From Euzebya pacifica (lineage in GTDB: Bacteria; Actinomycetota; Nitriliruptoria; Euzebyales; Euzebyaceae): 64,000 nt of DNA. Numbering within the stretch: position 1 is the stretch's first letter; each line of letters begins with the position of its first letter. The translations under genes and the position numbers were made by a program. Where the stretch lies: the NCBI RefSeq assembly GCF_003344865.1, contig NZ_CP031165.1:4593910-4657909 (forward strand), written 5' to 3'. This document shows positions 28,768-33,297 of the stretch, one piece after another. The notes below the pieces were generated by a model that had not been told where the DNA came from, did not search any database, and was given only the letters and a program-made list of their open reading frames with translations.

Positions 28768-28801
28768 CGGCCCCCAACACCCCGTCCCCACAGGAGCCAC
28801 C

Positions 28802-29725
28802 ATGACCGCCACCGTCCGTCCCCGTCGCACCTGCCTTGCGGTACCGGGATCCAGCACCAAGATGCTGGGCAAGGCCGCAGGGATGGCCGTCGACGAGGTC
28901 TTCCTGGACCTCGAGGACTCCGTGGCTGCCGGTGAGAAAGCGCAGGCGCGCAAGAACGTGATCCAGGCGCTGGAGGAGCAGGACTTCGGCGACAAGACCG
29001 TCGTGGTCCGTGTGAACGCCGTCGACACCCACTTCTGCTACCGCGACCTCGTCGAGGTCGTCGAGGCGGCCGGGCAGCACATCGACTGCATCATGGTCCC
29101 CAAGGTCCAGGAGCCGGGTCAGCTGGAGTTCGTCGACCACATGCTGCGCATGATCGAGCAGCAGGTCGGCATCGAGCACCGCATCGGGCTGGAGGCGCAG
29201 ATCGAGGACGCCGAGGGCCTGACCAACATCGACGACATCGCCATCTGCTCCGAGCGCCTGGAGACCCTCATCCTGGGCCCGGGCGACATGTCGGCGGCGC
29301 TGGGCATGCCATCGACGACCCTGGGCGAGCGCTCCGACACCTACCCCGGTGACATCTGGCACCACGTGCTGATGCGCATCCTCGTCGCGGCGCGGGCGGC
29401 GGGACTGCAGGTCATCGACGGGCCGTACGCCAAGATCAAGGACGACGCCGGCCTCCGCGAGGTCGCCGGCATGGCCAAGGCGTTGGGCTACGACGGCAAG
29501 TGGGTCCTCCACCCCGCCCAGGTCGACATCGTGAACGAGGTCTTCTCCCCCACCCAGGCGGAGTTCGACCACGCCACCGACCTGCTGGCCGCCTACGAGA
29601 AGGCCACCGGCTCCGACGCCCGCGGCGCCGTCATGTTCGGCGACGTGATGATCGACGAGGCCAGCCGCAAGATGGCCGAGGTCATCGCCGGCCGCGGCCA
29701 GGCCGCCGGCATGACCCACAGCTGA
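28802..29725 (+). CDS. HpcH/HpaI-family CoA-ester lyase, malyl-CoA lyase-like
   Basis: The 307 residues start at ATG 28802 after CAGGAGCC. Residues near the start (RRTCLAVPGSSTKML) and the metal-site segments VFLDLEDSVA, RIGLEAQIEDAEGLTNIDDI and LILGPGDMSAALG are those of CitE-like (beta/alpha)8 lyases with Mg2+. The tail MFGDVMIDEASRKMAEVIAG resembles L-malyl-CoA/beta-methylmalyl-CoA lyases more than citrate lyase beta chains. Expected reaction: cleavage of (3S)-malyl-CoA or beta-methylmalyl-CoA into glyoxylate and acetyl- or propionyl-CoA. Two further genes here (43817, 48813) fit the same ethylmalonyl-CoA pathway, which supports this role. It has its own promoter. Confidence 0.8.
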   Translation: MTATVRPRRTCLAVPGSSTKMLGKAAGMAVDEVFLDLEDSVAAGEKAQARKNVIQALEEQDFGDKTVVVRVNAVDTHFCYRDLVEVVEAAGQHIDCIMVPKVQEPGQLEFVDHMLRMIEQQVGIEHRIGLEAQIEDAEGLTNIDDIAICSERLETLILGPGDMSAALGMPSTTLGERSDTYPGDIWHHVLMRILVAARAAGLQVIDGPYAKIKDDAGLREVAGMAKALGYDGKWVLHPAQVDIVNEVFSPTQAEFDHATDLLAAYEKATGSDARGAVMFGDVMIDEASRKMAEVIAGRGQAAGMTHS

Positions 29726-29775: not shown

Positions 29776-30600
29776 CCGTGATGTGCGGCTCGGCCGGGAT
29801 CTCGGCCAAGCTGCACAGACTTCCCGGGTGCAGGTGCAGCTTGGCCGGTCAGCCGGCCAAGCTGCACAATCCCATCGGCCGCGTCGACCGACGGCCGCCC
29901 GGCTGACCTGGCCGCTCCAGCTGGCCACGCCACTCCGGCTGGCCCGCCGCTCCGGCTGGCCCGGCTGGCCCGGCCGTCATGTGCGGCTCGGCCGGAATCT
30001 CGGCCAAGCTGCACAGACTTCCCGAGTGCAGGTGCACCTTGGCCGGCCGGCCGGCCAAGCTGCACAATCCCATCGGCCGCGTCGACCGACGGCCGCTCCG
30101 GCTGGCCACGCCACTCCGGCTGGCCCGGCTGGCCCGGCCGTGATGTGCAGCTCGGCCGGTCACGCGGCTCCGGCTGGCCGGCCGTGATGTGCAGCTCGGC
30201 CGCGATCTCGGCCAAGCTGCACAGACCTCCCGAGAAGAAGTGCAGCTGAGCCGGCCGGCCGGCCGAGCTGCACAAACTCCATCGGCCGAGTCGACCGAAG
30301 GCCCCCCTGATGCCCGCTGGCCCGGCCGGCCGTGATGTGCGGCTCGGCCGGAATCTCGGCCAAGCTGCACAGACTTCCCGGGTGCAGGTGCAGCTGAGCC
30401 GGTCAGCCGGCCAAGCTGCACAATCCCATCGGCCGCGTCGACCGACGGCCGCTCCCGCTGGCCCGCCGCTCCGGCTGGCCCGGCTGGCCCAGCCGTGATG
30501 TGCAGCTCGGCCGGAATCTCGGCCAAGCTGCACAGACCTCCCGAGAAGAGGTGCACCTGACCCGGCCGGCCGGCCGAGCTGCACAACTCCAGCGGCCGCA
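29776..30600. repeat. Array of five two-hairpin repeat units plus one partial unit
   Basis: This fills most of the 950-bp gap between two convergent genes (29726-30676). Each unit begins GTGATGTGCGGCTCGGCC or a close variant (about 29778, 29978, 30184, 30332, 30496; a partial copy at about 30142). It contains a first imperfect hairpin, then a second large one; in unit 1, GTGCAGCTTGGCC (29834-29846) pairs perfectly with GGCCAAGCTGCAC (29855-29867). Two unit types differ in the linker: CTTCCCGGGTGCAGG-like in units 1, 2 and 4, and CCTCCCGAGAAGAAG-like in units 3 and 5. Spacing varies (about 150-206 bp). Open frames across the array only reflect the repeat and do not look coding. Function unknown. 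Confidence 0.9.
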
Positions 30601-30676
30601 CGGTCAGCCGTCAGGGCAGCCCCGGATCAGCGGCCGCCAGGTCAGCCGCCAGGGCAGCCCCGGTCGGCCACGAGGG

Positions 30677-33226
30677 TCAGCCGAAGGACACGTAGACGTC
30701 CGTGGCGCCGTTGGTGTCGGTGGGCAGCAGGTCGCCGAACACCGCGAAGGCCACGAGGCCGTTGTCGGCCACGGCGGCGCTGTCCCCGCCGGCGCAGGTG
30801 AAGTTGGTGTTGTGGGTGCCGTCGGCGGCGACGTCGACCCGCGTCAGCTGCAGCGGCATCGGCGTGACCCGGTAGACGCCGCAGCCGTCGCTCGGGGCGA
30901 TGCCGTCCGGTGCCGTGGTCGACAGGAACGTCACCGCCGTCCCGGCATCGGCGATGTCGGGGCGGGAGGCCGCATCGAGCTGGGTCGTCGCGTCCCCCGT
31001 CGAGGAGATCAGCAGCGTCGACTGGGCGGCACGGTCACGCAGGAACACGTCGGTGCCGCTGCCGCCGGTCCCGGCAAGCCCAGTCGAGGAGCTGGCGAAG
31101 GCCACGAGTCCGCCGTTGGCGTTGGTGCTGACCCGGTCGGCCGGCACCGCACCGTCGCCCTGCACCCCCTGGCCGTCGACGCTGACGATGCGGATGTCGG
31201 TCTGGCCGCTCGCCCGGTCCCAGGTGACGGCGTACACGTCGGACGTGGTCGTCGTGTCGGACTCCACGAGGTCCCGGCGGGCGGAGGTCATGACGATGGT
31301 CGAGCCGTCCGCCGACAGGTCGAGGGCGACGACGTCGGCGTTGGTGAAAGGCTGCCCCGACGACGTCCGGACGACGTCCACCTCCCCCGTTGACAGGTCT
31401 CGGACGAACACGTGCACCGACTGGGTCCCGGTGGGCCCGGCCCCGTTGCCCCGGTACACCGCGAGGGTGCCGTCGTCGGAGATGTCGGCGTGGGCGGGGC
31501 TGCGGACCGGCTCGCCCTGGGCGTCGATCGACAGCAGCGTGGTGGTGCCCGACTGCAGGTCGCGGAGGTAGGCGTTGGTGCCGTTGACGCCGGCTGCCAC
31601 GGGGTCCAGCCCGGCGTCTGCGGAGCTGAACACGGCCCATCGGGCATCGCCACTCAGGCGTGGGCGGACCTCTTCGGACACCGCGAGGTTGCCCTGTGCC
31701 GGGGTGCCGTCGGGACGGATGTCGAGGAGTTCGAGGGCCTGGGCCTGCACGTAGCTGTGCATCGGGCCCGGGGCGGCGAGGCCGCCGGGGCCGCCGCCGG
31801 ACACGAAGGCCACCGCACCTGCGCTTGCCGCCACGTCCGGGAGCGTTCCGCCCACGGCGGTGCCATCCGTACCGGCCGACACCAACTGCAGGGTCGAGGT
31901 CGGCGCACCGAAGGTGTAGGTGGCGCGTTCGGTCTGGGTCAGGCCGTCGCCACGGTCGATGGTCACGACCAGCTCGCAGGCCGATCCCTGGGGCGATGCG
32001 GTCAGCTCGACGACGCCGTCGTCAGCGAGCGGGAACGGTGCGCCGTCCACGCACGACCCGCCGGAGACCGTCGCCGAGGCGGTGCCGACATCGACGAGCA
32101 CGGACGCCCCCGGCGCGGCGGTGGCCCCGGTCGCCGGCGTGAAGGTCACCTCGACACGGGGTGGCAGGCCCAGCTCCACTCGCCCCTCCTCACAGATGTC
32201 GCTGTCGATCACGCACGTCAACCTGATGGCACCGGGGTCCTGGGCGAACGCCGAGGCGCCGGGCCCGCCGGACAGGAACGCCTCGGTCTCGGGCGGCAGG
32301 ACCTCACCGGTGGCCAGCACGATCGGGGCATCGAAGTGGGCGGAGTGCGCCGCAGCGGCGAACCCCCCGGCCCAGGCGTCAGCGGCCTGGCCGTCGACGA
32401 GCGTCACCCGGTCGACGTCAGCGGCGGAGTCCGCGCCGAGCTCCTTGGCGACCTCCACCCCGGTGCCGAACCGGGTCGGACCGGCGATCCGGTCGACCTG
32501 GCCGACCATGGTCGCGACGGCGTCCTCGGTGGCCTGGCTGATGGCGGCCGTCCCACCCATGATCAGGACCCGGTCGAACCCGGCCGTGGCCATGTAGTCA
32601 GCGGTGGCCGGCGTCAGCCGATCGGTCTCGGTCAGCAGGATCGGCCAGCCGTTCTCCGCGGCCATGCCGCCGGCGGCCAGGGAGTCGGCGAACCCCTGTG
32701 TCGGGTCACCGGCATCCGGCGCGGGGAAGGCCCGGGCGAGGATGGCCGTGGAGGTCGCCGGGCCGTCCTCGGCGATGGCGATGGCCGTCTCGAAGCGGGA
32801 CGCCCCCTGGCGTCGATCGACGGTGTAGCCCGCCGCGGACAGCTGTTCGGCCACGGCTGGCTGCACGGCGTTCTCGCCACCGAGCAGCGTCACCCGGGAC
32901 GGACCCACGCGGGCCAGCTCGTCCAGCACCAGGTCGGGGACGGGACCGGCCGGCGGGACGAGCAGCAGGGGGCTGTCGCCCTGCAGCACCCCGGAGGTCA
33001 TGGAGTCCACGAAGACGTCGTCCCGTCCGATCAGCACCCGAGTCGACGCGAGCGGCGTGGACTGCGACAACGACACGGCGACCTCGACGTTGCTGAGCGC
33101 CTCCCCCTCCTTGATGACGTAGAGGGTGTCGGACAGCTCGGTCGCCCCGTCGGCCACAACGGGCAGGCCGAGGAGGAGGAGCAGGCAGGACACGAGGGCG
33201 ATCCGGAGGAGCTGCGGGGCGTTCAT
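30677..33226 (-). CDS. Secreted CWB2-repeat protein with C-terminal beta-propeller
   Basis: The 849 residues start at ATG 33226 (MNAPQLLRIALVSCLLLLLG, a signal peptide). Cell-wall-binding type 2 repeats fill about residues 60-330, seen as RVTLLGGENAVQPAVAEQL, RRQGASRFETAIAIA, RVLIMGGTAAISQATEDAV and RIAGPTRFGTGVEVAKEL. A Cys-containing beta-rich linker follows. From about 440 there are repeated blades of the TolB/WD type (RPRLSGDARWAVFSS, HADISDDGTLAVYRG, ALDLSADGSTIVMTS, RPDIADAGTAVTFLS). CWB2 repeats attach proteins to wall polymers; the propeller may bind a ligand. A lytic transglycosylase gene lies just upstream on the same strand. Confidence 0.9.
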   Translation of the reverse strand: MNAPQLLRIALVSCLLLLLGLPVVADGATELSDTLYVIKEGEALSNVEVAVSLSQSTPLASTRVLIGRDDVFVDSMTSGVLQGDSPLLLVPPAGPVPDLVLDELARVGPSRVTLLGGENAVQPAVAEQLSAAGYTVDRRQGASRFETAIAIAEDGPATSTAILARAFPAPDAGDPTQGFADSLAAGGMAAENGWPILLTETDRLTPATADYMATAGFDRVLIMGGTAAISQATEDAVATMVGQVDRIAGPTRFGTGVEVAKELGADSAADVDRVTLVDGQAADAWAGGFAAAAHSAHFDAPIVLATGEVLPPETEAFLSGGPGASAFAQDPGAIRLTCVIDSDICEEGRVELGLPPRVEVTFTPATGATAAPGASVLVDVGTASATVSGGSCVDGAPFPLADDGVVELTASPQGSACELVVTIDRGDGLTQTERATYTFGAPTSTLQLVSAGTDGTAVGGTLPDVAASAGAVAFVSGGGPGGLAAPGPMHSYVQAQALELLDIRPDGTPAQGNLAVSEEVRPRLSGDARWAVFSSADAGLDPVAAGVNGTNAYLRDLQSGTTTLLSIDAQGEPVRSPAHADISDDGTLAVYRGNGAGPTGTQSVHVFVRDLSTGEVDVVRTSSGQPFTNADVVALDLSADGSTIVMTSARRDLVESDTTTTSDVYAVTWDRASGQTDIRIVSVDGQGVQGDGAVPADRVSTNANGGLVAFASSSTGLAGTGGSGTDVFLRDRAAQSTLLISSTGDATTQLDAASRPDIADAGTAVTFLSTTAPDGIAPSDGCGVYRVTPMPLQLTRVDVAADGTHNTNFTCAGGDSAAVADNGLVAFAVFGDLLPTDTNGATDVYVSFG

Positions 33227-33297
33227 CGTCGGCAACCCTATGGGATGGGCACCGCCGTCAGCCCTGCTGTCGTCCTTTCGTCATCCGGCGAGGCGGG

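Follow-up and report, generated by a model that had tools for sequence, protein, structure and literature searches.

A genus-specific family of four-arm palindromic elements in Euzebya, with a candidate AbiEi-like nuclease as partner

We analysed a 64,000-nt stretch of the Euzebya pacifica genome (NZ_CP031165.1, positions 4,593,910 to 4,657,909), hereafter called the window. Near its middle, the gap between two convergent genes is occupied by five 87-bp units, whose coordinates are collected in Table 1. Their successive starts are 198, 208, 148 and 163 bp apart, and the units agree pairwise at 83 to 96 of 99 positions. The five paired-hairpin units that a first, sequence-only reading of this DNA had placed between the convergent genes are thus present, together with an orphan arm; of its description of the linkers, the two types stand but the strict alternation does not, the order along the array being 1,1,2,1,2. 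A 38-bp tandem repeat (1.9 copies) is found at 30590-30663, immediately 3' of the last unit. No relatives of the flanking aldolase passed in the genome_contigs collection.

Table 1. Features of the array and its surroundings (window coordinates)
Feature	Coordinates	Strand	Description
Upstream convergent gene	28793..29725	+	HpcH/HpaI aldolase / citrate lyase beta family protein; predicted start
Array of five 87-bp units	29782..30585		In the gap between the gene ends at 29725 (+) and 30677 (-)
Unit 1	29782..29868	+	Palindrome A 29782-29817, 15-bp linker type 1, palindrome B 29833-29868; R1 95.0 bits
GC-rich filler, units 1-2	29894..29963	.	Degenerate 17-18 bp tandem repeat
Unit 2	29980..30066	+	Linker type 1
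Orphan arm (truncated unit)	30144..30157	+	Single left arm; no partner arms at the usual spacing
Unit 3	30188..30274	+	Linker type 2
Unit 4	30336..30422	+	Linker type 1
Unit 5	30499..30585	+	Linker type 2
Downstream convergent gene	30677..33235	-	Cell wall binding repeat 2 (CWB2) protein

Each unit is composed of two 36-bp palindromes (14-bp arms around an 8-bp centre) with 15 bp between them. The arms start at offsets 0, 22, 51 and 73, and the pitch from palindrome to palindrome is exactly 51 bp. A single motif, CGAGT-TGTGCAGCTCGGCC-like, is common to the four arms (208 arms from a 52-copy set, from which seven near-duplicate tandem copies were removed and in which a weak element of the sister species, at L112, fell under the scan threshold). 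Its strongest positions are GTGCA, T8 and G11C12C13, and the 5-bp outer extension of the 14-bp arms is weaker. We propose that the functional unit of the element family is an inverted repeat of 34 bp, GTGCAGCTCGGCC-N8-GGCCGAGCTGCAC, which is doubled at the 51-bp pitch with its half-sites in the order > < > <.

Dispersed copies were first found by BLAST and pattern searches and then counted with a covariance model. The latter detected 26 elements in this genome (G000), all on contig C1, and 34 in a sister species (G001). None was detected by the model on C2, the 571-kb second contig of G000, for which no plasmid match was found. Of two other genomes of the genus, G002 harbours the same palindrome, mostly single, and no palindrome was found in G003. 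Of the 66 genomes of the class, 3 contain the strict motif, and all three belong to this genus; the reversed pattern, used as a control, gave 0. Elsewhere, we obtained 8 scattered single matches in genome_contigs, a collection from which near relatives may have been left out and whose matches were taken as background, and 0 in viral_contigs. An origin-centred distribution was discarded, as an early gap at 0.97-3.28 Mb was filled once the covariance model added copies. Literature searches retrieved no paper linking Euzebya with the terms palindromic and intergenic, and none with the 13-bp arm.

Local tandem copies occur at five loci. In particular, G001 has near-identical tandem element pairs 119-190 bp apart at four loci (L087, L091, L104 and L108), independently of the window array, which indicates that local duplication recurs. 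The orthologous place in G001 carries one element, so the array arose when a single member of this family of intergenic elements, which is interspersed and specific to the genus, was multiplied locally in tandem. It is not a chance arrangement, given the genome-wide recurrence of the family and its predicted folding: five 116- to 117-nt segments gave z-scores of -4.9 to -6.3 relative to shuffled sequences, with 0 of 200 shuffles equally stable in each case. The spread of a small palindromic element, one of the two options offered by the sequence-only reading, is borne out by the 26 copies that the genome-wide search returned and by junctions of other species that lack the element. Its exclusion of CRISPR also holds, since the units are diverged and irregularly spaced and copies are dispersed among unrelated genes.

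Comparisons between the two sister species revealed what is conserved in these elements. Of 20 G000 loci examined, 19 match an element-bearing locus of G001, the exception being L113, and the aligned flanking DNA is 77-94% identical. In 21 orthologous element pairs, identity is 93% for the GTGCA cores (392/420), 47% for the loops (159/336) and 45% for the linkers (141/315); the corresponding values for non-orthologous pairs are 92, 38 and 35%. The internal distances 0/22/51/73 are kept in 21/21 pairs, and, leaving out the window array, orthologues agree in their distance to the neighbouring stop codon in 1 of 31 cases. As the scan behind these pairs imposes the geometry, the search was repeated with a model of one palindrome, which leaves the pitch free. 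By our own reading of its output, the 51-bp pitch is present in 58 of 60 elements; in the other two, both at L108, the second match is shifted or missing. Loops and linkers are near saturation between orthologues while the geometry is constant.

More distant species provide junctions without elements. At the aldolase locus of G002, the convergent arrangement is the same, the stop codons are ~13 bp apart and no element is present; by our own reading, the neighbour gene there is the same as in G000. No element was found within 330 bases on either side of nucS, or in the 330 bases downstream of rplI, in G002 or G003. A loose scan allowing two mismatches gave chance-level matches at the nucS and rplI junctions, including one at the G002 nucS junction. 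The polX locus was set aside as a possible empty site, its relatives being only 26-52% identical. Because elements are missing at matching junctions in G002 and G003, their distribution is most simply explained by insertion in the G000/G001 lineage followed by persistence, the alternative being loss in the other species.

Such presence and absence at matching junctions, together with outer arms that resemble terminal inverted repeats and tandem copies at the five loci, might also point to a dead REP/BIME- or MITE-like miniature mobile family, with an unspecified enzyme and no function, whose members would be alike through common descent. Neutral decay would nevertheless hit the cores like the loops, at odds with the 93 and 47% identities of orthologues, and element length is kept in all 21 pairs although flank length has changed in 30 of 31 cases. 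We consider this explanation quite improbable.

Using gene calls from a simple codon-usage script, we found 30 convergent, 21 co-directional and 0 divergent pairs among 51 element-bearing gene pairs. Among gaps of 40 bp or more that lack an element in the same sequence windows, 17 are convergent, 105 co-directional and 59 divergent (Fisher p 1e-12 for convergent and 7e-8 for divergent, values that are too small because orthologues of two species are counted twice). Divergent promoters are thus avoided. The 14 palindromes of G002 are distributed as 5, 8 and 1, respectively. The flanking genes have no functional theme (39/41 distinct flanking proteins, G000 single-copy loci). The elements at C1:37719 and 41101 of G000 (L125) flank an operon for a TetR regulator and an ABC-2 permease, and the same is found in G001 (L106). 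Speculatively, a complex bound between convergent genes might block transcription in both directions.

The location of all 51 behind genes, 30 between convergent and 21 between co-directional ones, and the strength of the predicted stems are features expected of RNA hairpins, which might act in folded form as bidirectional terminators or 3'-end stabilisers. In the co-directional cases, the sense strand also has more G-U than A-C cells (34 vs 23), a non-significant difference (p 0.18). However, no terminator-like sites (0) were found in the window stretch, where the T tract is absent, and a terminator needs no loop and linker of fixed length and free sequence. Rfam returned sub-threshold matches to microRNA and snoRNA families only. 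The array hairpins keep 9-13 of 14 Watson-Crick pairs, contrary to the initial claim of stems that remain paired as their bases change; in the second example given for it, GCTGAGCC with GGCCGAGC, 2 of 8 positions are unpaired, as read from the sequence.

The pairing of arms was also compared over the family. Relative to shuffled partners, B1-B2 pairing is in excess (helix z 3.0), with the surplus at two arm positions (38 vs 27.4 and 31 vs 24.6); the pairing z-scores are 1.5 for A1-A2, -0.8 for A1-B2 and -0.2 for A2-B1. A comparable surplus is seen when palindromes are compared for identity on the same strand (z 2.8 and 3.9), and we therefore read the B1-B2 excess as reflecting sub-types of whole elements. 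The covariation score of an 18-copy alignment is no higher than in shuffles, 109 of 500 of which reach it. Compensated changes between orthologues number 7, 9, 4 and 10, for 5.6, 5.3, 6.6 and 6.2 expected (p 0.32, 0.07, 0.93 and 0.07; 0.07 applies to B1-B2 and A2-B1). Among 520 cells, core variants affect a single arm in 39 cases and both arms in 1, and arm positions 7 and 9 are paired in only about half of the copies. Over the wider family, then, changes that preserve pairing are not clearly more frequent than expected by chance, and the arms accordingly behave like half-sites for a protein on double-stranded DNA, not like RNA stems. With compensation near chance in most tests and core variants left uncompensated, we regard RNA hairpins as an unlikely explanation. 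The selection for structure envisaged at the outset, for which covariation had been named as the check, is likewise unsupported, the arms being conserved singly as sequence.

The family separates two usual readings of bacterial palindromic repeats, and protein binding is favoured over RNA folding because geometry and arm sequence are kept and pairing is not. From these sequence comparisons, we consider it probable that a protein recognises the arms on double-stranded DNA and that the sites have been held by selection after an earlier spread.

According to passages of two reports (PMC3733652, PMC2817692), REP/BIME sequences are short intergenic palindromes that are paired, locally clustered, placed downstream of genes or in convergent gaps, and specific to a species or genus. 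The Euzebya elements are similarly short extragenic palindromes repeated through the genome, paired and locally clustered, located behind genes and between convergent genes, and limited to a genus. In contrast with REP/BIME, the GTAG tag is found in 0/52 elements and CGTC in 10/52, and the arms are conserved as sequence without clear compensation. Genomes with REPs usually have over 100 of them, as stated in a passage of PMC2817692, compared with the 26 and 34 elements found here, and most REP dimers have variable spacers, according to part of PMC3733652, unlike the invariant pitch of the elements. Furthermore, the Y1 (IS200/IS605-like) RAYT or TnpA-REP transposase that had been suggested was not found (PF01797 in 0/4 genomes of the genus, the model being positive in 5 of 14 control genomes), and the gene that lies between two copies codes for a predicted HTH-nuclease, not for a RAYT. 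The elements probably work as REP/BIME-type protein-bound repeats, from which they depart in tag, transposase and copy number. We file them as a new variety of interspersed palindromic repeats with a specific putative partner.

The protein that binds the arms might be another chromosomal factor, such as a nucleoid organiser, a segregation factor or a tyrosine recombinase. Sites all round the main chromosome with none on the 571-kb contig, and flanking genes devoid of a functional theme, are consistent with this. So is the 8-bp variable centre between 13-bp arms, as loxP and FRT have the same 13-8-13 geometry as each palindrome, and a XerC-like gene is located ~2 kb from the element at 3907648. 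However, G003 has no sites although it belongs to the same genus, which does not fit a conserved chromosome function, and no clustering at one pole is evident. The tyrosine recombinases common to the three species that were compared read as XerC/XerD-like or lie beside a relaxase-like gene. The one adjoining the relaxase-like gene in G000, G001 and G002, an arrangement as in an integrative element, was rejected as a partner. It is a ~400-aa protein next to a relaxase/helicase-like gene (L204, L205 and L200), 77-98% identical between the species, and this locus is probably an integrated conjugative or mobilisable element. On the whole, such another binder is improbable.

A more specific candidate partner came from the element loci themselves. 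In G000, G001 and G002, elements flank both sides of one gene coding for a protein of about 350-370 aa, and this is the sole syntenic locus common to the 12 fetched G002 and the 48 G000/G001 element loci. By our own reading, the nearest upstream copy is ~90-120 bp before the predicted start in all three. AbiEi models match the three proteins (best 8.8e-13); in P0001, the G000 protein encoded at L130:4206-5312, the best match covers residues 26-72 and one model spans 25-202. Nothing exceeded the cut-offs of Pfam and NCBIfam, with MTES_1575 and AbiEi_1 below cut-off in Pfam. Two viral contigs encode relatives of the candidate's C-terminal part, and these score as DUF559/MTES_1575; E255, D292, E303, D305 and H308, which we take to be a PD-(D/E)XK site, are invariant in the three proteins. 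The candidate is thus probably composed of an AbiEi-like winged helix and a DUF559/PD-(D/E)XK nuclease. Its AlphaFold model is poor (mean pLDDT 48.8) and too weak for argument; no match of the fold search reached E 0.001, and a weak one to the catalytic domain of I-Bth0305I (E 0.17) merely agrees with the domain assignment. No relatives were detected on plasmids and phages or, by sequence, in the PDB. In G003, the gene was not found in 859 kb of about 4.8 Mb, a search in which the positive control was found. The candidate is 76% identical to its G001 counterpart and its neighbour 96%, the values for G002 being 46 and 76%; it evolves faster than the neighbour, as a passage of PMC2817692 also reports for RAYTs.

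As described in parts of PMC7319586, the site bound by AbiEi consists of two 23-bp inverted repeats with 3 bp between them, and that of the AbiEi-family antitoxin Rv2827c of two tandem pairs of inverted repeats of the same length. Tandem inverted repeats in the order > < > < are a feature that the elements share with these operators, and the candidate matches AbiEi models and has an element copy upstream of its own predicted start in three species. The operators, in contrast, are located at one promoter, where the repeats measure 23 bp and the gaps 3 bp, or 13 and 4 bp (part of PMC7319586), whereas the elements are dispersed behind unrelated genes and the candidate has a nuclease-like domain.

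By this analogy, we tentatively propose the AbiEi-like nuclease as the cognate arm-binding and mobilising protein, while leaning slightly against the assignment. AbiEi/DUF559-type proteins are common in actinobacteria, and one beside an element could therefore be there by chance; the second element pair (37719, 41101), which flanks the unrelated TetR-ABC operon, also counts against the pairing. If the pairing is correct, the candidate would bind the four arms in the way that antitoxins of the AbiEi family recognise paired inverted repeats; the copy upstream would let it repress its own gene, and cutting or nicking at the elements would have spread them in the past. That a nuclease of this type, encoded between its own four-arm sites, seeded the chromosome and now occupies the elements seems rather unlikely in this complete form. 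As an overall explanation, we lean modestly towards a genus-specific family of four-arm DNA sites with the AbiEi-like nuclease as its proposed binder. Were this protein the binder, REP-like repeats would have originated alongside a second enzyme class unrelated to the first, as a counterpart of REP/RAYT made of toxin-antitoxin and restriction-enzyme parts. AbiEi-type and DUF559 domain proteins, which are abundant and unexplained in actinobacteria, would then gain a testable job.

Two observations were made near such elements. Upstream of the candidate gene of G002, two palindromes (L120:3701 and 3782) have a pitch of 81 bp instead of 51. At L130:4017, compared with L097, G000 and G001 are homologous only up to a point ~12 bp outside the left element, and the left neighbour differs in G000, indicating a rearrangement that ended at this element.
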